This document shows positions 2,455 through 62,259 of a stretch of 64,000 nt of DNA, piece by piece. The first letter of the stretch is position 1, and the number at the start of each line of letters is the position of its first letter. This stretch comes from Clostridium sp. BJN0013. GTDB taxonomy: Bacteria > Bacillota > Clostridia > Clostridiales > Clostridiaceae. The translations under genes were made by a program, and so were the position numbers. The stretch lies in the NCBI RefSeq assembly GCF_040939125.1, contig NZ_CP162495.1, positions 2,976,001 through 3,040,000 of the forward strand. Reading direction: 5' to 3'. The notes beneath the pieces were generated by a model. The model had not been told where the DNA came from. It did not search any database and worked only from the letters and a program-made list of their open reading frames with translations.

Positions 2455-2530
2455 AATCAAGTAACATTAGATTCAGATAGAATTTGTTATAAGAAATGCT
2501 TTTCTCTACTTGAATCTTAAAAGGATCTAT
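2455..2530 (+). repeat. Partial copy of dispersed hairpin repeat (copy E)
   Basis: The 5' part of the repeat family described at 36029-36181. It begins ATCAAGTAA, has a diverged arm TTCAGATAGAA, the loop core ATAAGAAATGCTTTTCT and the closing arm CTACTTGAATCTTA. It sits in the divergent pxpA/map intergenic region. The rest of this 335-bp gap is AT-rich promoter DNA. Confidence 0.7.
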
Positions 2531-13962: not shown

Positions 13963-14045
13963 GTGCCTGTAAGCTTTCCTAAAAATATGTAAAATATCAA
14001 GTGATTCTTAGAATAGAATATCAAAAAGTGATTGGGGGAAAATAT

Positions 14046-15848
14046 TTGAATAGTTCACATGATGTTTATATTAATAGATTAAAAATCTACACAGATTTAA
14101 TTAAAAAACAGAACAACTCAATAAAAACTATAGAATATCTAAGGCTTCTTACTCTAATAGTAGGTATTAGTATTACAATTTATACTTTCAATGTTAATAA
14201 ACATTTTGTAAGTATAGGAATTTTTATTTTCTCACTAGCTATTTTTATTTACTTAGTTAACCAGCATAACAAAGAAATAAAAAAGAGAAAATATTCCATG
14301 GCCTTAAAGGATATAAATGAATCTGCCCTGAAGAGACTAAATGGTCAATGGAAAAATTTCGAAGATGATGGAAGTGAATTTAAGCATAAAGAACATCCTT
14401 ATTCAGAGGATCTGGATATATTTGGTGAGAACTCCCTATTTCAGTGGATTAATACTTGCAAAACATTTATGGGGAGAGAAGCACTAAAAAACCGACTTTT
14501 AAATCCCCTTAAAACATCTTGTGACATAAATATGACTCAAGAATCATTACAGGAGTTAGCTGTGGATTTAAAATGGCGTCAGCTATTTGAAGCTGAAGCA
14601 ATGGTTATTCCTTCAGAACCCATTAGCCCTAAAGAATTATATAAATGGGGAAAAGATAGAAATGAGTTATATATAAAATCCTGGTTTGCTTTTACAATTA
14701 AATTACTGCCTTTTTTAACATTAATGTTAATGATTTTATCTTATGGTACTTCCTTGATAAGTTTTAAGTTGCCCTACATTATGCTTATCATTCAAATATC
14801 ACTTTTATTTATAGATGTAAAAAAAAGAAATACTACCTTTAAAAGTCTTTATAAATACAAAAATAGTATAACTATATATTCAAAAATGTTAACTTTAATT
14901 GAGGAAAAAGATTTTAAAAGCAGTTACTTGAAACAATTAAAAAATAATCTATTTACTTCTAAAAATATATCTGCAGTAAAATCCATAAAAAAACTATCTG
15001 CTGTATATAATAAAGTATCTGATAGAAAAAATATGTTGTCTATAATCCTTAATATATTATTTCTATGGGATTATCAGTGTATAGTAGAATTTGAAAAATG
15101 GAGAGTTAAATCGGGCAATAATCTGGAAAAATGGTTTAATACCATAGGACAATTTGAAGCATTAAATAGTATTTCAAATATTATTTATGATAATCCAAAT
15201 TGGGATATGCCTTTAATTTCAGATAAGACTTATGTACTCAAAGCCACTGAATTAGGTCATCCTCTTTTAGGGGATACAAGAGTATGTAATAATATTACAA
15301 TAAATAATAAAAAAAATATTTTATTAATAACAGGTTCAAATATGTCTGGTAAAAGTACTTTTCTAAGAACTGTAGGTTTAAATTTAGTACTAAGTTACAT
15401 TGGTGCTCCGGTATGTGCAAAAAAATTCCAATGCTCATTTATGGAAATATTCACCTGCATGAGAATAAGAGATGATTTAGAAAACAATATATCCTCCTTT
15501 TATGCAGAAATATTAAGGATAAAAATGATTGTTAAGAATGTAAAGAAAACTACAAAAGTATTTTTCCTTCTAGATGAGTTATTTAAAGGCACTAATTCTA
15601 TTGATAGACATCTTGGAGCTAAGGCATTAATAAAACAATTGGGTGAACAAGGGGCATCAGGACTCATTTCCACCCATGACTTGGAACTGTGCAGTTTAGA
15701 AAAAGAATATCCTAGAATTAAAAATTATCACTTTCAAGAATACTATTTAAATAATAAATTAAAATTTGACTACAAAATTCGAGAAGGAATATCCACTACC
15801 AGAAATGCTAAATATCTCATTAAACTGGCAGGTATAGATTTTGAATAA
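14046..15848 (+). CDS. Membrane-anchored MutS-family ATPase
   Basis: A 600-residue protein. The TTG at 14046 is chosen because GGGGG lies eight bases upstream; an earlier GTG has no ribosome site. Two pairs of hydrophobic segments (about residues 40-80 and 215-260) suggest membrane anchoring, unlike MutS or MutS2. The C-terminal MutS ATPase has Walker A ITGSNMSGKSTFLRT, a Walker B region FFLLDELFKGTNS and the ISTHDLEL switch. No mismatch-recognition domain I is present and there is no Smr domain. Such proteins are widespread in clostridia but uncharacterised. A role in recombination or DNA handling at the membrane is only inference. Confidence 0.85.
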   Translation: MNSSHDVYINRLKIYTDLIKKQNNSIKTIEYLRLLTLIVGISITIYTFNVNKHFVSIGIFIFSLAIFIYLVNQHNKEIKKRKYSMALKDINESALKRLNGQWKNFEDDGSEFKHKEHPYSEDLDIFGENSLFQWINTCKTFMGREALKNRLLNPLKTSCDINMTQESLQELAVDLKWRQLFEAEAMVIPSEPISPKELYKWGKDRNELYIKSWFAFTIKLLPFLTLMLMILSYGTSLISFKLPYIMLIIQISLLFIDVKKRNTTFKSLYKYKNSITIYSKMLTLIEEKDFKSSYLKQLKNNLFTSKNISAVKSIKKLSAVYNKVSDRKNMLSIILNILFLWDYQCIVEFEKWRVKSGNNLEKWFNTIGQFEALNSISNIIYDNPNWDMPLISDKTYVLKATELGHPLLGDTRVCNNITINNKKNILLITGSNMSGKSTFLRTVGLNLVLSYIGAPVCAKKFQCSFMEIFTCMRIRDDLENNISSFYAEILRIKMIVKNVKKTTKVFFLLDELFKGTNSIDRHLGAKALIKQLGEQGASGLISTHDLELCSLEKEYPRIKNYHFQEYYLNNKLKFDYKIREGISTTRNAKYLIKLAGIDFE

Positions 15849-34209: not shown

Positions 34210-34303
34210 GTTGTAAAATAGAATAACTCCTCACTGATTTATGGTAAAATTGAATTGCCAAGAAACAAAATCACCATATACCTCAGAAAGGAGTTATATA
34301 CTT

Positions 34304-35761
34304 ATGATACCATATAAACAGCTTTCTTTGGCAGAAGTTTTTTCTGATTGCAAAGAAAAATTTGAAAACAACAAGCCCCAGTTTCTTTCTTTACTTGAAG
34401 ATACTATTGATCTGGATGATTTAGTTCCAGTTTCTTTTATAAATCATTTTTATGCTTCTACTGGAAGACCTCGTAAATATACACTTTATGCCATGCTTCG
34501 TGCTTTGATTTTGCAGCGTATTTTTTCTATTCCTACAGATTCCCTTTTGATTATTTTTCTTAAATATTCAAAAGAGTTGAGGGATTTTTGCGGTTTCACC
34601 AAAGTTCCTGATGCTTCTAAATTCACACGCTTTAGACAAGATTTTATTTTGGACTTACAATCAATGTTCCATAATCTTGTTAATATTACTGAGCCAATAT
34701 GTCAACAAATTGATAAGAACCTTGCTTCTATGACTATCTTTGATACTTCTGGTATTGAAGCTTTCGTCACTGAAAACAACCCTAAATATGCTAACCGCAT
34801 CATAAAACAACTTAAAGCTTTTAAGAAGACACATGGTCTGGATGATTCTTATGACCCTTATAAAGCTGCTTACAGGGCTATGCCTTCTCATGCTGCAGCT
34901 AATCCAGCCATCCAGCAGATGTACATTAACGGTCATTTTTGTTACGCTTTTAAATTTGGCATTGTAACCAACGGCCTTGGTATTGTGAGAGATATTTCAT
35001 TTTACAACCAAGATTTCCTTAAAACTCATCCAGATATCGTTGTTGAGAAAAAATCCAATTCTCCTGATGAAGATAAGTCCCTTGCTGATTCTAAAGCACT
35101 TATACCTGTCCTTAAGGATTTTTTTGAAAAACATCCTTTGATAAATCCTAAAACTTTTTTAGGTGACGCTGCTTTTGATAGTATTGAAATTTATCAATAT
35201 CTTTTTCAAGAACTAAAGTTTGAAAAAGCATATATTCCACTAAAAACTAAGCTTGCACCAGAAGAATCCGATTGTCCTTTGAATGAAGATGGTATTCCAT
35301 GCTGCCCTCATGATCATTCACTACCCATGAAGCAAGAAGGCAGCAAATCACACTTACGCTCAGAAATTCCAACAATGAAATTCGTTTGCCCTAAAATGAA
35401 ATGGATTTATAATAAAGAAACGAAAAAGAGTAAACGAAAAACTCTTTGTGAAGATCCTTGTACTAAATCATCTTGTGGCAGAATGTTCTACATTTATCCA
35501 GAAAAAAATTTGCGTGCATACCCAGGAACAACTCGTGGTTCCCAAGATTGGAATTATACTTATAAAATTCGTTCTACTGTTGAAAAAAGCATTGGACATT
35601 TTAAAAACAGCTATTGCATTGCAAACCGTAGAACACAAAATGAAAAAACTCTTCATGCTGACTTACTTCTTTCAGGCATAACCCAGCTAATAACAGTTGT
35701 TATAGCCAATAAAATACACAAGCATGAATATATCAGAAGTCTAAAACCATTAATTGCATAA
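34304..35761 (+). CDS. IS1182-family transposase, copy 1
   Basis: A 485-residue DDE transposase. The ATG at 34304 (MIPYKQLSLAEVF) has GAAAGGAG twelve bases upstream; a longer frame from 34241 lacks a ribosome site. It has an N-terminal DUF772-like DNA-binding region (STGRPRKYTLYAMLRALILQ) and catalytic acids likely in TIFDTSGIEAF, FLGDAAFDS and RSTVEKSIGHFK. A Cys-rich segment (CPKMKWIYNK...CEDPCTKSSCGRMF) is a possible zinc knuckle typical of this family. Intact and identical to the second copy, so it is probably active. Confidence 0.93.
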   Translation: MIPYKQLSLAEVFSDCKEKFENNKPQFLSLLEDTIDLDDLVPVSFINHFYASTGRPRKYTLYAMLRALILQRIFSIPTDSLLIIFLKYSKELRDFCGFTKVPDASKFTRFRQDFILDLQSMFHNLVNITEPICQQIDKNLASMTIFDTSGIEAFVTENNPKYANRIIKQLKAFKKTHGLDDSYDPYKAAYRAMPSHAAANPAIQQMYINGHFCYAFKFGIVTNGLGIVRDISFYNQDFLKTHPDIVVEKKSNSPDEDKSLADSKALIPVLKDFFEKHPLINPKTFLGDAAFDSIEIYQYLFQELKFEKAYIPLKTKLAPEESDCPLNEDGIPCCPHDHSLPMKQEGSKSHLRSEIPTMKFVCPKMKWIYNKETKKSKRKTLCEDPCTKSSCGRMFYIYPEKNLRAYPGTTRGSQDWNYTYKIRSTVEKSIGHFKNSYCIANRRTQNEKTLHADLLLSGITQLITVVIANKIHKHEYIRSLKPLIA

Positions 35762-36028: not shown

Positions 36029-36181
36029 ATCAAGTAATTCTAAAGTTCAGGTGGAATTTGCTCATAAGAAATACTTTTCTCCATTTGAACCTTAGAGAAC
36101 TCATCCAAGGGCGTAACAGTGCTCATTCCCCCACTTTGAAGAAGCTAGGGGTGTTAGCTAATTGCCACCTTCGGATAAAAA
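36029..36181 (+). repeat. Dispersed hairpin repeat, full copy A
   Basis: A 153-bp element. Hairpin 1: the arm ATTCTAAAGTTCAGGTGGA pairs with the arm ending TCCATTTGAACCTTAGA, around the conserved loop TTTGCTCATAAGAAATACTT. Hairpin 2: a CCCCC ... GGGG stem around CACTTTGAAGAAGCTA. The conserved end is GTTAGCTAATTGC, then TTCGGATAAA. It lies directly upstream of the flavin reductase gene. Other copies: B, C, D, E, F, H and two short ends. Confidence 0.85.
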
Positions 36182-36228
36182 CACATAATTTATAAATTTA
36201 AAAAAATTATTTTAAAGGAGGACAATTT

Positions 36229-36738
36229 ATGTATAAATTCAATGAAATTAAACCTGAAGAATTAAATAAAAATGCCTTTCAACTTATAGGCAAAGATTGG
36301 ATGCTTATTACTGCTGAAAAAGATGCTAAAGTAAATACTATGACTGCCGCTTGGGGAGGTTTAGGTGTTATGTTTGGTAAAAATGTAACCTATATTGTTA
36401 TAAGGCCCCAACGTTATACTAAGGAGTTTGTAGATAACTCAAGTACCTTTTCTTTATCCTTTTTAGATAATAGCTTTAGAAAACAATTAAATTACCTAGG
36501 AACTACATCTGGTAGAGACGAAGATAAAATTTCAAATTCTAATTTAAGCATTAACCATGAGAATAATACCCCTTATATTGGAGAAGCAAACCTTGTAATT
36601 ATATGTAGAAAATTATATGCTCAAGATTTTAGTTCTAAACATTTCATCGATACTCAATTAGATAAAAAATGTTATCCTGACAAAGATTATCATACTTTAT
36701 ATATCTCTGAAATAGAAAAAATTCTTATTGGCAAATAA
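36229..36738 (+). CDS. Flavin reductase-like FMN-binding protein
   Basis: A 169-residue protein of the flavin reductase domain family (split-barrel FMN-binding fold). AWGGLGVMFGKNVTYIVIRPQRYTKEF and FSLSFLDNSFRKQLNYLGTTSGRDEDK are characteristic. In clostridia these act as stand-alone flavoproteins, some linked to oxygen response; no partner is adjacent. A good AAAGGAGG ribosome site. The gene is bracketed by two copies (A and B) of the dispersed hairpin repeat in the same orientation. Confidence 0.9.
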   Translation: MYKFNEIKPEELNKNAFQLIGKDWMLITAEKDAKVNTMTAAWGGLGVMFGKNVTYIVIRPQRYTKEFVDNSSTFSLSFLDNSFRKQLNYLGTTSGRDEDKISNSNLSINHENNTPYIGEANLVIICRKLYAQDFSSKHFIDTQLDKKCYPDKDYHTLYISEIEKILIGK

Positions 36739-36786
36739 TTGTTTGATGTATTTACGACAATAAAATAGAGAGATTAATTTCTCTCT

Positions 36787-36938
36787 ATCAAGTGATTCTT
36801 AGGCTCAGGTGGAGTTTGCTCATAAGGAATACTTTTCTCCATCTGAATCTCAGAAGAACTTATCCAGAAGCTTAACAATGCTTATCCCCGACTTTCAAAA
36901 AGTTGAGGATGCTAGCTAATTGCAAACTTCAGATAAAA
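36787..36938 (+). repeat. Dispersed hairpin repeat, full copy B
   Basis: A 152-bp copy starting ATCAAGTGATTCTTAGG. Hairpin 1 arms are TCAGGTGGAG / CTCCATCTGA around TTTGCTCATAAGGAATACTT. Hairpin 2 arms are TATCCCCGACTTT / AAAGTTGAGGATG. The sequence of hairpin 2 differs from copy A but pairing is kept. It ends GCTAGCTAATTGC ... CAGATAAAAA, 13 bp before the next stop codon. Confidence 0.85.
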
Positions 36939-42353: not shown

Positions 42354-42368
42354 ATCAAGTTATTCTTA
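42354..42368 (+). repeat. Short end fragment of the dispersed hairpin repeat
   Basis: ATCAAGTTATTCTTA matches the first 15 bases of copies A to C. The rest of the element is absent. Confidence 0.55.
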
Positions 42369-42482: not shown

Positions 42483-42575
42483 ATCAAGTGATTCTTAAGT
42501 TCAGATGTAGTTTACTCATAAGGAATACTTTTCTACATCTGAACCTTAGAATAATTTATCCTAAAGTGGTCAATA
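42483..42575 (+). repeat. Dispersed hairpin repeat, copy C (5' half)
   Basis: It begins ATCAAGTGATTCTTAAG. Hairpin 1 arms are GTTCAGATGTAG / CTACATCTGAAC around TTTACTCATAAGGAATACTT. Relative to copies A and B the arms changed from GGAG/CTCC to GTAG/CTAC, a compensating double change. Hairpin 2 is missing or degraded. Confidence 0.8.
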
Positions 42576-43587: not shown

Positions 43588-43690
43588 GATCAAGTTATTC
43601 AGAGGGTTCAAGTGAAGTTTGCACATAAGGAATGCTTTTCTCCACTTTGAATAAGATAGAAATATTAGCTAATTCTGCATTCAGATAATA
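43588..43690 (+). repeat. Dispersed hairpin repeat, copy D (short form)
   Basis: It starts ATCAAGTTATTC. Hairpin 1 arms are TTCAAGTGAAG / CTCCACTTTGAA around TTTGCACATAAGGAATGCTT. It then jumps directly to ATTAGCTAATTCTGCATTCAGATAA. Hairpin 2 is absent, giving a 103-bp form with both ends. Confidence 0.8.
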
Positions 43691-45120: not shown

Positions 45121-46419
45121 ATGTCAAAATTTTTTAATTTACCTGTAGTAGGTATCGATGTTTCTGCTGATTATTCTATGGTTGCAGTACTAGCCCCTGA
45201 TGGAGCAGTTTATAGAAAGGCTTTCAAGATAATGCACACTTCTGATGGTTTCTCTTATCTTCTCAAAGAAATGAGAAAAGTGGAAAAAGAGTTCTCCATG
45301 AAACCATCACTTTTCATGGAATCAACTGGTGTTTACCATTTAACTCTTTTCCACTTCCTAAAGAATAACGAATTAGAAACTTTCGTTATAAATCCTCTTA
45401 TTACTAATAGTAACAAAAATTTAGGAATAAGAAAAGTGAAAAATGATAAAATGGATGCCTTAACTATTGCAAACATAGCAAAATTTCAAAATATAAAAAT
45501 GTCTGATTATTTAGATATCCCAATATTTGCTGTAAGATCACTTTGTCGTGATTACTACAGCCTTATAGATAACCGTTCCCAGTTCAAGAAAAAGTTATCT
45601 TCTGATCTTAGAACGTTTTTTCCTGGATATCATAATGTTTTTTCTGACGTAGCTGGTGTTACTTCATTAGCAGTTTTAAGTAAATTTTCATCCCCTAAAG
45701 CAATTGTTGATGCACCAAAAGATGATTTAATTGCTTTACTAAAGGAAAATTCTTGTAAATCAATTGACTGGTGTACAAACACATATAACAAACTTTTAAA
45801 CGCTGCACTAAGTGCTGTACAAATAGGAATAACCAATAATTCCTTTAAAGTAACTATAGGCATAAATATAAAGCTTTTAAACATCATTAATGAACAAATT
45901 GAAACTCTAGTAAATGAAATAGAATCAGCAGTTAAAAATGACTCAACACCTGCTTCATTTAAGAACAACATAGCATTGCTTCTTTCTTTCAAAGGTATAG
46001 GCTTTATTACAGCTGTAACCATAATGAGTGAAATAGGCGATCCTACAAGGTTCAAGCATCCAAAAGAAATGGTTGTTTTCTTTGGAATTGACCCTTCAGT
46101 TAGTCAATCCGGGAAATTTAATAGTGACCAAAATAAAATGTCCAAGCGTGGTACACGCTTTGGTAGAAGAGCACTTTATGCTGCTGCTCTTGCATCAATA
46201 AGAAAATCCAAAACTGGTAAACCAATTAACAGTGTTCTTTACCAGTATCGCAATAAAAACTTAAATGGTAAGAAGAAGAAAGTTGCTCTTTGTGCAATTA
46301 TGCACAAACTTGTAAAGTACATATTTGCAGTTCTTAGAGATCAAAAGCCTTATGAAATTCGTGAACCAAAACTGCACAACCAAATGTATGTTACTAATTT
46401 TTCAAGATCAGTTTCTTAA
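45121..46419 (+). CDS. IS110-family transposase (DEDD recombinase)
   Basis: A 432-residue transposase. The N-terminal RuvC-like DEDD domain starts VVGIDVSADYSMVAVLAPDG and has MESTGVYH and VKNDKMDALTIA. The C-terminal Tnp domain has LLSFKGIGFITAVTIMSEIG, FFGIDPSVSQSGKF and the catalytic-type Ser region KMSKRGTRFGRRALYAAA. AAAAGGAG precedes the ATG. The frame is intact. The long structured 5' non-coding end puts it in the IS110 rather than IS1111 group. Confidence 0.95.
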   Translation: MSKFFNLPVVGIDVSADYSMVAVLAPDGAVYRKAFKIMHTSDGFSYLLKEMRKVEKEFSMKPSLFMESTGVYHLTLFHFLKNNELETFVINPLITNSNKNLGIRKVKNDKMDALTIANIAKFQNIKMSDYLDIPIFAVRSLCRDYYSLIDNRSQFKKKLSSDLRTFFPGYHNVFSDVAGVTSLAVLSKFSSPKAIVDAPKDDLIALLKENSCKSIDWCTNTYNKLLNAALSAVQIGITNNSFKVTIGINIKLLNIINEQIETLVNEIESAVKNDSTPASFKNNIALLLSFKGIGFITAVTIMSEIGDPTRFKHPKEMVVFFGIDPSVSQSGKFNSDQNKMSKRGTRFGRRALYAAALASIRKSKTGKPINSVLYQYRNKNLNGKKKKVALCAIMHKLVKYIFAVLRDQKPYEIREPKLHNQMYVTNFSRSVS

Positions 46420-46738: not shown

Positions 46739-46767
46739 CATTGTAAATAAATTTGTGGAGGTACCTC

Positions 46768-47040
46768 ATGAGCAATAGCGATTCCAATAAAGGCATCAAT
46801 GAGGAAGTTGAAAATTCCTATGACTTTGAAGTTCCTATGTATTGTCCATACTGTTCAATGCCCTACACTAGATCAATTCAAGACGAATATGCAAACCTAG
46901 ATCCTTATGATGAAAACTTTGATGATAACTTTTACCCTGGATATAGACGCAGAAGTCATAGAAGACGCAGGCGTAGAAGACACAGACGTGGATTTCCTCT
47001 TTGGCCATTAATATTTTTCTATGACGACTGGTATTGGTAG
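46768..47040 (+). CDS. CxxC / acidic / Arg-rich small protein, paralog 1
   Basis: A 90-residue protein starting at the ATG seven bases after GGAGGT (MSNSDSNKGIN). Four segments: a polar N-terminus; VPMYCPYCSMPYTR with a single CxxC; an acidic stretch (NLDPYDENFDDNFYPGY); and a dense Arg/His block (RRRSHRRRRRRRHRRG) ending in a hydrophobic aromatic tail, FPLWPLIFFYDDWYW. The paralog at 61972-62259 keeps the CxxC and tail exactly while the middle varies. Probably a spore-layer protein, given the sigma-K-like promoter and neighbouring SASP genes. No known family is recognised. Confidence 0.75.
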   Translation: MSNSDSNKGINEEVENSYDFEVPMYCPYCSMPYTRSIQDEYANLDPYDENFDDNFYPGYRRRSHRRRRRRRHRRGFPLWPLIFFYDDWYW

Positions 47041-50807: not shown

Positions 50808-50851
50808 AACCTTATGACACAAACTCCGCTTGAATCTAAAAATCACTTGTT
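50808..50851 (-). repeat. Dispersed hairpin repeat, partial copy H
   Basis: On the minus strand the sequence ACAAGTGATTTTTAGA, then TTCAAGCGGAG, then TTTGTGTCATAAGG matches the first 45 bases of the repeat. It is the only clear copy in reverse orientation in the window. Confidence 0.65.
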
Positions 50852-52077: not shown

Positions 52078-53846
52078 TAGGGTTTGCGAAACGCTATAAC
52101 CCGCATAAATGCGGTATATTTTTTGTTGTAAAATAGAATAACTCCTCACTGATTTATGGTAAAATTGAATTGCCAAGAAACAAAATCACCATATACCTCA
52201 GAAAGGAGTTATATACTTATGATACCATATAAACAGCTTTCTTTGGCAGAAGTTTTTTCTGATTGCAAAGAAAAATTTGAAAACAACAAGCCCCAGTTTC
52301 TTTCTTTACTTGAAGATACTATTGATCTGGATGATTTAGTTCCAGTTTCTTTTATAAATCATTTTTATGCTTCTACTGGAAGACCTCGTAAATATACACT
52401 TTATGCCATGCTTCGTGCTTTGATTTTGCAGCGTATTTTTTCTATTCCTACAGATTCCCTTTTGATTATTTTTCTTAAATATTCAAAAGAGTTGAGGGAT
52501 TTTTGCGGTTTCACCAAAGTTCCTGATGCTTCTAAATTCACACGCTTTAGACAAGATTTTATTTTGGACTTACAATCAATGTTCCATAATCTTGTTAATA
52601 TTACTGAGCCAATATGTCAACAAATTGATAAGAACCTTGCTTCTATGACTATCTTTGATACTTCTGGTATTGAAGCTTTCGTCACTGAAAACAACCCTAA
52701 ATATGCTAACCGCATCATAAAACAACTTAAAGCTTTTAAGAAGACACATGGTCTGGATGATTCTTATGACCCTTATAAAGCTGCTTACAGGGCTATGCCT
52801 TCTCATGCTGCAGCTAATCCAGCCATCCAGCAGATGTACATTAACGGTCATTTTTGTTACGCTTTTAAATTTGGCATTGTAACCAACGGCCTTGGTATTG
52901 TGAGAGATATTTCATTTTACAACCAAGATTTCCTTAAAACTCATCCAGATATCGTTGTTGAGAAAAAATCCAATTCTCCTGATGAAGATAAGTCCCTTGC
53001 TGATTCTAAAGCACTTATACCTGTCCTTAAGGATTTTTTTGAAAAACATCCTTTGATAAATCCTAAAACTTTTTTAGGTGACGCTGCTTTTGATAGTATT
53101 GAAATTTATCAATATCTTTTTCAAGAACTAAAGTTTGAAAAAGCATATATTCCACTAAAAACTAAGCTTGCACCAGAAGAATCCGATTGTCCTTTGAATG
53201 AAGATGGTATTCCATGCTGCCCTCATGATCATTCACTACCCATGAAGCAAGAAGGCAGCAAATCACACTTACGCTCAGAAATTCCAACAATGAAATTCGT
53301 TTGCCCTAAAATGAAATGGATTTATAATAAAGAAACGAAAAAGAGTAAACGAAAAACTCTTTGTGAAGATCCTTGTACTAAATCATCTTGTGGCAGAATG
53401 TTCTACATTTATCCAGAAAAAAATTTGCGTGCATACCCAGGAACAACTCGTGGTTCCCAAGATTGGAATTATACTTATAAAATTCGTTCTACTGTTGAAA
53501 AAAGCATTGGACATTTTAAAAACAGCTATTGCATTGCAAACCGTAGAACACAAAATGAAAAAACTCTTCATGCTGACTTACTTCTTTCAGGCATAACCCA
53601 GCTAATAACAGTTGTTATAGCCAATAAAATACACAAGCATGAATATATCAGAAGTCTAAAACCATTAATTGCATAAATATCAGCTATTTTTAAATTTTAG
53701 AATTAATCATGGTTCTATTTCTTGCACCCTTTTTTTCTATTTAGCCATTACAAATCAGGAAAATCACCTTTAATCTTCTAATTATCTTTTTTGAAATTCC
53801 CCCTACTCCTCAATTCATTTTTATCAGTGAGTTTCGCAATTGCCTA
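52078..53846 (+). mobile_element. IS1182-family insertion sequence, copy 2
   Basis: The same element as 34163-35931, in the same orientation, identical across the transposase and internal non-coding parts. It is flanked by ATATTAATCTT at 52066-52076 and 53847-53857, a different target duplication from copy 1. The copies therefore inserted independently. Both targets contain ATTAATNTT. Confidence 0.9.
52219..53676 (+). CDS. IS1182-family transposase, copy 2
   Basis: A 485-residue transposase identical to the one at 34304-35761: same start context (GAAAGGAG), DUF772-type N-terminus, DDE region and Cys-rich insert. Identity of two copies points to recent transposition or gene conversion. Because the copies are direct repeats, recombination between them could remove about 18 kb, including the XRE, lysozyme and SASP genes. 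Confidence 0.93.
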   Translation: MIPYKQLSLAEVFSDCKEKFENNKPQFLSLLEDTIDLDDLVPVSFINHFYASTGRPRKYTLYAMLRALILQRIFSIPTDSLLIIFLKYSKELRDFCGFTKVPDASKFTRFRQDFILDLQSMFHNLVNITEPICQQIDKNLASMTIFDTSGIEAFVTENNPKYANRIIKQLKAFKKTHGLDDSYDPYKAAYRAMPSHAAANPAIQQMYINGHFCYAFKFGIVTNGLGIVRDISFYNQDFLKTHPDIVVEKKSNSPDEDKSLADSKALIPVLKDFFEKHPLINPKTFLGDAAFDSIEIYQYLFQELKFEKAYIPLKTKLAPEESDCPLNEDGIPCCPHDHSLPMKQEGSKSHLRSEIPTMKFVCPKMKWIYNKETKKSKRKTLCEDPCTKSSCGRMFYIYPEKNLRAYPGTTRGSQDWNYTYKIRSTVEKSIGHFKNSYCIANRRTQNEKTLHADLLLSGITQLITVVIANKIHKHEYIRSLKPLIA

Positions 53847-53939: not shown

Positions 53940-54071
53940 CTTTAAAGATTGAAATAATGAGGAGCTTTTTTCTACCTGAATCTCAGAATAACTTATAAAG
54001 AAACGTAGCAGTGCTCATCCCCCACCTTGAAGAAGCTAAGGGTGTTAGTTAATTGCTGCATTCAGATAAAT
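53940..54071 (+). repeat. Dispersed hairpin repeat, copy F
   Basis: The 3' two thirds are well conserved: CTACCTGAATCTCAGAATAA, GTAGCAGTGCTCATCCCCCA, CTTGAAGAAGCTAAGGGTG and TTAGTTAATTGC ... TTCAGATAAA. The 5' arm is strongly diverged. It lies upstream of the DUF3892 gene. Confidence 0.75.
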
Positions 54072-61971: not shown

Positions 61972-62259
61972 ATGAGTATCAATGATTCTAATGACAACTC
62001 CAATGAAAAAGTTGAAAATTCTTATAACTTTGAAGCTCCCATGTATTGCCCATACTGCTCAATGCCTTATACTAGACCAATTCAAGATAAATATACGGAT
62101 GTAAATCCTTATGATGAAGACTTTGATGAAAATTTTGATTATGACTTCAATCCTGGATATAGACAAAGACGTCGTAGAAGACGTAGAAGACGTAGAGGGC
62201 ATAGACGTGGATTCCCTCTTTGGCCATTAATATTTTTCTATGATGACTGGTATTGGTAA
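61972..62259 (+). CDS. CxxC / acidic / Arg-rich small protein, paralog 2
   Basis: A 95-residue paralog of the protein at 46768-47040. It keeps APMYCPYCSMPYTRPIQD, an acidic middle longer by about five residues (NVNPYDEDFDENFDYDFNPG-like), the Arg block (QRRRRRRRRRRGHRRG) and the identical tail GFPLWPLIFFYDDWYW. GGAGGT precedes the ATG at the same distance. Conservation of both ends with a variable charged middle suggests that the CxxC knuckle and the aromatic tail are the working parts. Probably a spore-surface or spore-core protein. No known family recognised. Confidence 0.75.
   Translation: MSINDSNDNSNEKVENSYNFEAPMYCPYCSMPYTRPIQDKYTDVNPYDEDFDENFDYDFNPGYRQRRRRRRRRRRGHRRGFPLWPLIFFYDDWYW

Follow-up and report, generated by a model that had tools for sequence, protein, structure and literature searches.

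A two-hairpin repeat dispersed through Clostridium genomes is a family of mobile DNA elements

The repeat analysed here is a mobile DNA element family, and the pairing in its 3´ half (domain 2) has been kept by compensatory change far beyond the genus. We read it, with a probability of about 0.62, as a non-autonomous element of two hairpins that is probably moved as hairpin DNA by an enzyme acting in trans. It came to attention in a stretch of 64,000 nucleotides of Clostridium sp. BJN0013, referred to as the window, in which an earlier note had picked out a dispersed hairpin repeat. That repeat is confirmed. With full extents scored by a covariance model, R1, built on an alignment of 29 copies from the genome itself (A2), the window holds two full copies, four that are partial or degraded, and three 5´ fragments:

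36029-36180, plus strand: full copy A, subfamily I, without inner module (R1, 147.8 bits)
36787-36938, plus strand: full copy B (R1, 152.8 bits)
36791-36860, plus strand: domain 1 of copy B, a long stem with a loop of ~22 nt near 36815-36836
36861-36935, plus strand: domain 2 of copy B, with outer helix TTATC/GATAA, inner helices and terminal hairpin CCCC/GAGG
42483-42564, plus strand: copy C, domain 1 whole, domain 2 gone after a few nucleotides (R1 match to 42578, 81.5 bits)
43589-43690, plus strand: copy D, both ends kept (R1 match to 43728, 36.7 bits)
53940-54071, plus strand: degraded domain 1 with recognisable domain 2, starting 264 nt past the IS1182-like ORF at 52156-53676 (R1 match from 53929, 65.7 bits)
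2456-2530, plus strand: degraded domain 1 alone (R1 match to 2538, 42.5 bits)
50808-50851, minus strand: probable 5´ fragment, one arm of domain 1 with some of its loop
13996-14011, plus strand: bare 16-nt 5´ end, exact match to the 5´ end pattern
42354-42368, plus strand: bare 15-nt 5´ end, exact match to the degenerate end pattern

Copy A has its left AT at 36029-36030 and its right AT, followed by AAA, at 36175-36176; a flavin-reductase-like ORF (36229-36738) begins 48 nt downstream. The ATs of copy B are at 36787-36788 and 36933-36934, and a terminator-like hairpin called on the minus strand (36764-36789) stands directly before it. The two copies are 87% alike in one stretch of 69 nt and 80% in another of 55 nt, and the core CTCATAAGGAATACTTTT has four matches at up to three mismatches, where 0.30 are expected. 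Copy D has lost an internal segment running from domain 1 into domain 2. Because the 5´ end pattern matches the window 10 times at up to two mismatches against 2.7 expected, exact ends count and ends with two mismatches are weak; the fragment at 50808-50851 has two mismatches in its 15-nt end and no R1 match. R1 also matches the minus strand weakly at several of the same places, as expected because the hairpins are palindromic. The bare end at 13996-14011 overlaps the GTG that opens the longest frame of a MutS-like ORF (14001-15848), so that the real start of this ORF may be elsewhere or borne by the element. The window further encodes a paralogous pair of small proteins (46753-47040 and 61972-62259), both with a CPYC motif and an extended run rich in arginine; the first has no Pfam match.

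A full copy measures about 152 nt, consists of AT, the hairpin of domain 1, domain 2, AT and AAA in that order, and contains no ORF. Domain 1 has 21 modelled pairs and a loop of ~22 nt. Domain 2 is closed by TTATCC/GGATAA, in which three pairs covary, and continues through a conserved mismatched stretch to an inner helix beside a GTAG-like loop and a terminal hairpin. The earlier note had described a hairpin repeat with a fixed loop. The hairpin and its nearly fixed loop stand, but they form only one of two domains in an element with AT on both sides; moreover, the loop varies among copies, and it is missing or much shortened in subfamilies II and III and in most of the distant relatives read. 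The stem change from GGAG/CTCC in copy B to GTAG/CTAC in the copy at 42483 is present in the sequence as it had said.

Three subfamilies have domain 2 and the ends in common and differ in the first hairpin, which reads ATCAAGTGATTCTTAG in subfamily I, ATCAATGAATCTTACTTAG in II and ATAAACAGAGTTCTTGG in III. Read directly, the ends are ATCAAG.. or ATAAACAGAG.. on the left and ..CGGATAAA on the right; inverted ends of the kind found on miniature inverted-repeat elements (MITEs), which the earlier note had held to be incompatible with its proposal, were looked for and are not present in any of the three subfamilies. Subfamily III starts with ATAAA, and ATAAA or ATAAG comes after it. All three pair the inner TTAT with ATAA at the right end, through a helix that covaries at the adjacent base (TTATCC/GGATAA, TTATCT/AGATAA), and TTAT is also able to pair with the left AT(C)AA.

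The element is modular. Long forms carry, between the domains, a module of 52 nt (M1) that is itself a hairpin, with 11 of 12 pairs formed. Its 31-nt core has 46 matches in the genome at up to three mismatches, the module occurs in 9 of 13 genomes of the genus, and in 23 long copies of the genome itself it is 97% alike, against 85% for the body of the element. The terminal loop of domain 2 can house a second module of ~50 nt (M2), of which three tandem copies are found at one locus. Two alignments of orthologous copies caught the modules changing: M1 was cleanly gained or lost in one, and M1 and M2 were exchanged in the other. Isolated 5´ ends, followed up at 10 places, belong to six truncated copies, three internally deleted copies and one nearly complete copy. 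The breakpoints of the internal deletions at loci L299, L300 and L302 resemble those left by slipped pairing of short direct repeats or by removal of the upper hairpin.

The genome contains at least 150 copies, all scored ones passing E 0.001. The search of Clostridium genomes with a covariance model that the earlier note had proposed was run, and at E 1e-4 it found 22 to at least 150 copies in 9 of the 13 genomes of the genus; two others (G001, G012) have one weak match each, which a second model, R2, does not confirm, and two have none. At E 1e-6, R1 matches 78 of 206 genomes and 21 of 46 genera in the family. In a sample of the phylum the same threshold gives 28 of 398 genomes, 22 of 267 genera and 17 families including its own, of which one (f83, genome G326) is not confirmed by R2 and several rest on matches near E 1e-7. 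Thirty-six distant loci were chosen and three were left out as broken by contig ends; in the 33 that were read both domains are present and the ends are of the same type, with point changes in some. The core pattern also occurs in C. ljungdahlii, C. ragsdalei, C. carboxidivorans, C. drakei, C. muellerianum, C. luticellarii and C. uliginosum, and further in Clostridium sp. OS1-26, Clostridium sp. BL-3 and one metagenome-assembled genome. Three query elements had no blastn match in plasmid records, a weak negative, and one query element had no match in phage records. The statement that the repeat falls in no known RNA class holds against the 4227 families of Rfam, which give nothing at gathering score over the whole window; a relaxed search (E up to 10) of four other loci placed no match on the element. 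A RAGATH-18 RNA motif (74.9 bits, gathering score 44.9) lies ~190 nt upstream of one copy (L002, 1236-1309). No description of the repeat was recognised from titles in the literature, a weak negative since subscription papers were mostly outside the search.

Mobility was seen by comparing 400 kb of one genome (G009) with the matching stretches of two others (G006 and G007), all ~95% identical. One locus on the G009 contig is identical to C. ragsdalei P11, and one of G007 likewise to C. ljungdahlii ERI-2. One-sided inserts were found in 41 comparisons, many of them other repeats, and 17 comparisons, covering 11 orthologous places at which the element is present in one genome and absent from another, were scored; they had been chosen because the element shows the end patterns of subfamily I, II or III on both sides, AT included. 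Joining the flanks across one AT fitted the empty site best in 16 of the 17, against joining with no AT or with two. The remaining comparison was nearly tied (0.83 to 0.84), and four of the 17 score low (0.54 to 0.67), which makes their exact junction less sure. Five further comparisons in which an end is altered or lost, including one right end AG and one GT, were left unscored. Another clean empty site is seen at locus L172 against L239, and at L193 and L171 a terminator-like hairpin has the element on one side in one species and, inverted, on the other side in the second. The same three genomes show further insertion polymorphisms of ~100-400 nt that belong to other repeat families, several of which have inverted ends when read by eye (L242-L295). 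The insertion site is AT^AAA, with AT on both sides when filled and a single AT when empty, which corresponds to either a 2-bp duplication or a 2-bp core. The earlier note had set covariation against a mobile element as if one spoke against the other; here both hold.

The flanks of distinct copies give the same site. A set of 176 copies was selected to have both ends, a choice biased toward intact ones, and 35 were dropped because their end patterns did not fit; among the 141 profiled, the left AT is present in 136 and the right AT in 128, and the bases after the right AT are A in 94%, 94% and 91%, then in 51% at the fourth. None of the 176 copies lies inside an ORF of at least 100 aa. By a simple ORF heuristic, without random control, the ORFs flanking 156 copies are tandem in 93 cases, divergent in 35 and convergent in 28 (the other 20 were omitted, with the locus edge near or the ORF too far). 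Copies often stand close behind genes, at a median of 27.5 nt after a co-directional ORF. Relative to the replication fork, with origin and terminus placed by GC skew, 62 of 150 copies are oriented with the leading strand and 88 against it (P = 0.04).

The pairing-preserving changes reported from the few copies of the window are borne out on larger samples. In 106 distinct subfamily I copies fitted to the model (alignment A3), double changes occur in 25 of 44 pairs against 12.4 in shuffles, and in 144 cells against 47 in shuffles and at most 33 in slid controls. In 49 domain 2 sequences from within and outside the family, aligned with MAFFT and not fitted to structure (A4), the corresponding figures are 18 of 26 pairs against 10.6 and 136 cells against 42, with at most 29 when slid, and several pairs take three or four Watson-Crick forms. 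The 29 copies of A2 are mixed: nine pairs with double changes against 7.5, a value reached by 139 of 500 shuffles, 27 double-change cells against 16.1, and a covariation score that none of the 500 shuffles reaches. The outer helix of domain 2 usually contains conserved mismatches, but in L333 and L340, two distant copies, it is fully palindromic, as expected from DNA template switching at a hairpin.

Whether such pairing is maintained as RNA or as DNA can be approached through its mismatches. A structured RNA tolerates G.U on its own strand and does not tolerate A.C. Among pairs whose commonest form is Watson-Crick, the ratio of G.T to A.C in the element is 149:156 in A3 (here 110 rows), 26:26 in A4 and 58:73 in A2, compared with 29:2 in 29 SAM riboswitches of the same genus (the best-scoring, with RNAalifold structure; one of 30 was dropped as incomplete). 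At E 1e-8 there are 22 SAM riboswitches in the genome itself and 6 to 30 in each of the other 12 of the genus. The covarying columns of A4 alone give 10:11. These strand-symmetric mismatches therefore argue against upkeep of a folded RNA from individual copies; they oppose RNA upkeep in the copies more than an RNA intermediate, because decay of dead copies also makes G.T equal to A.C. Outside this count are four columns of A3 in which G.T is the commonest form (73:1, 93:0, 47:0 and 71:0 in favour of G.T), and these may be left over from an RNA strand or represent four inherited states. Copies A and B fold to similar stability on either strand (-41.6/-46.1 and -42.0/-42.5 kcal/mol). Against a DNA reading, copy B folded as DNA is within the range of its shuffles (z -1.25, with 19 of 200 as good), while copies A and B folded as RNA are unusually stable (z -3.2 and -3.1). 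Overall, upkeep of a DNA hairpin fits the conserved pairing better, and the RNA reading is not supported. The proposal of selection on folded RNA or on folded single-stranded DNA, rather than a relic, consequently survives in part: the element is folded and covaries, but the mismatches oppose its upkeep as RNA.

A search for the mover found no enzyme among the Y1 transposases of the genome or at the IS110 element of the window. The 15 matches to PF01797 (Y1 transposase) in the genome include no intact RAYT-type gene. Nine belong to nearly identical copies of an IS200 (151 aa), two of which contain an in-frame TAG; the rest are reduced in length, split or interrupted by stops (one, L115, scores 23.2 bits and has three stops). 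The resident nine-copy IS200 was rejected as the mover, its ends differing from those of the repeat; by eye, several of the nine adjoin terminator-like hairpins (L101-L109). Genomes with few copies were also read: 16 of 19 had a match, and 27 of 30 loci were read, two incomplete ones being left out. The 5´ hairpin lies directly upstream of domain 2 at 23 of the 27 and is missing, shortened or ambiguous at L363, L369, L370 and L373, and no ORF-bearing copy was seen by eye at any of the 27. In 2.3 Mb searched for an autonomous relative, 18 domain 2 matches lack the 5´ hairpin, and by eye these are truncated, degraded or fitted with another or a shortened hairpin. Two IS1182-like transposase copies in the window (34241-35761 and 52156-53676) are 99.4% identical over 1804 bp and each has a copy of the repeat ~265 nt behind its ORF, beyond the end of the IS; a link to the repeat was rejected, as the IS ends before the repeats and the flanks differ beyond it. 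The IS110 transposase at 45121-46419 has no R1 match at its flanks.

For the trans-moved DNA element that we favour, a course of events can be proposed. An enzyme supplied in trans would recognise both hairpins on DNA, most likely on folded single strands during replication. It would cut at the AT on each side and join the element to an AT in T/A-rich surroundings, frequently next to a terminator. Base pairing by the inner TTAT may select this site, much as guides do in IS200/IS605 elements; such pairing does not account for the A at the third position after AT. A more far-reaching version, which we hold to be unlikely when taken as a whole, would make these phylum-wide, gene-less elements with a nucleic-acid target code of their own. 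In it TTAT would pair with both junctions and with the ATAA target, an enzyme of a class not yet linked to such elements would carry out the exchange at AT, hairpin cassettes would be exchanged between copies, and covariation would be kept by DNA hairpins and not by RNA function.

Among the alternatives, the repeat may be carried along by a site-specific recombinase that crosses over at a 2-bp AT, either a serine recombinase or an enzyme of the IS110 type that uses the repeat as its bridge RNA. Two ATs when filled and one when empty are what a 2-bp core would leave, an IS110 transposase is encoded within the window, and the available text on bcr1, another repeat with a TTTAT motif, credits it with a mechanism like site-specific recombination (PMC6542083). 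The bare flanks of the window IS110 and a site of only ~5 bp that is AT-rich speak against such an enzyme, which we regard as quite improbable. About equally improbable to us is retrotransposition, in which a transcript would be reverse transcribed at the target with its 3´ AUAAA paired to the TTTAT of a nicked site, as in a bacterial counterpart of a SINE. The GGATAAA at the 3´ end agrees with the right side of the target, the RNA is stable, terminal inverted repeats are lacking and insertion occurs without a long duplication, all of which would suit this route. It is opposed by copies that are truncated at the 3´ end and intact at the 5´ end (6 of 10, a biased sample because it was picked by the 5´ end), the opposite of what target-primed reverse transcription leaves, and by the absence of a strand signature.

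The covariation, the conserved loop and inner-loop motifs, the stability of the RNA folds, the four G.T columns and the position of copies shortly behind co-directional ORFs might also describe a structured RNA that serves the host, as a regulator or as the leader or trailer of an mRNA, and happens to be repeated. We think this very improbable: copies come and go between 95%-identical genomes, genomes of one genus hold anything from 0 to at least 150 of them, neighbouring genes have no consistent orientation, and outside the four columns the element lacks the excess of G.U that marks the riboswitch. Least credible is an ordinary decayed MITE of a resident DDE insertion sequence, IS1182-like or IS4-like, since the small size, A+T-rich non-coding sequence, high copy number and two copies behind IS1182-like ORFs (34241, 52156) that suggest one are countered by the lack of terminal inverted repeats, by IS1182 copies that both stop before the repeats and have different flanks, and by a structure and ends that recur far beyond the genus.

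The repeat bears on two wider questions. Acetogens that can be manipulated differ in their copies of it, and its site and ends are defined, so that what moves repeats of this kind becomes testable. It also illustrates that strong covariation alone is no proof of a functional RNA; a count of G.T against A.C, calibrated on a riboswitch from the same genomes, helps to tell RNA from non-RNA cases cheaply.

Several known systems are comparable. According to the accessible parts of its description, the BOX element of Streptococcus pneumoniae and S. suis is interspersed, non-coding and tightly folded, was mobile in the past and has no enzyme of its own; it consists of boxA, boxB in numbers from absent to many, and boxC, with more in S. 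suis, and its size varies between strains with the number of modules (PMC3049150). The same source gives it terminal inverted repeats, target duplications and a weak similarity to the ends of ISSpn2, in two species (PMC3049150). Our repeat shares the modular build and variable module number, as seen in the changes of M1 and M2, the three tandem M2 and the long and short forms, and differs in lacking inverted ends, in having AT on both sides and in its occurrence in 17 families of the phylum sample. The element bcr1 of the Bacillus cereus group is described, in the parts of the reports available, as folded, of ~150-170 bp and 11 to 130 copies, with features of mobility, associated with TTTAT and restricted to that group (PMC6542083, PMC3446304, PMC2267715). 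The repeat is similar in size and copy number, and its site ATAAA is the reverse complement of TTTAT, a likeness drawn from the description only. As far as these sources go, BOX and bcr1 are each described from single species or groups, with movers only proposed, whereas the repeat matches 17 families of a 398-genome sample.

The EFAR element of Enterococcus faecalis has two independent stem-loops, measures ~170 bp in most cases and 42-650 bp by assembly of several sequence types, and its insertion removes part of the stem-loop that serves as target. The repeat likewise has two stem-loops, but its AT^AAA site is joined without loss; this comparison too is by description only. EFAR is named in the available part of PMC3733652, and Efa-1, of 163 bp (PMC2267715), may be the same. 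REP sequences and REPINs mobilised by RAYTs (PMC3733652, PMC3116915) are, like the repeat, hairpin-forming, extragenic and non-autonomous, and the repeat has GTAG beside its inner helix. Judged by the accessible text of these sources, they measure 20-40 nt, compared with the two large domains and 130-200 nt of the repeat, whose genome has no intact Y1 gene of the RAYT type.

IS200/IS605 elements have hairpin ends without inverted repeats, a short target and inner guide sequences that pair with the cleavage sites, and their insertion is strongly biased to the lagging strand. Hairpin ends, the absence of inverted repeats, a short target and an inner pairing sequence are shared by the repeat, which differs in its AT on both sides, in a site that includes the AAA on the right and in a weak fork bias; no TnpA with repeat-like ends was found when the ends of the resident nine-copy IS200 were compared. 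In conclusion, the repeat resembles BOX, bcr1 and EFAR in build, and on the strength of their descriptions we set it beside these elements rather than file it as a member of any of them.
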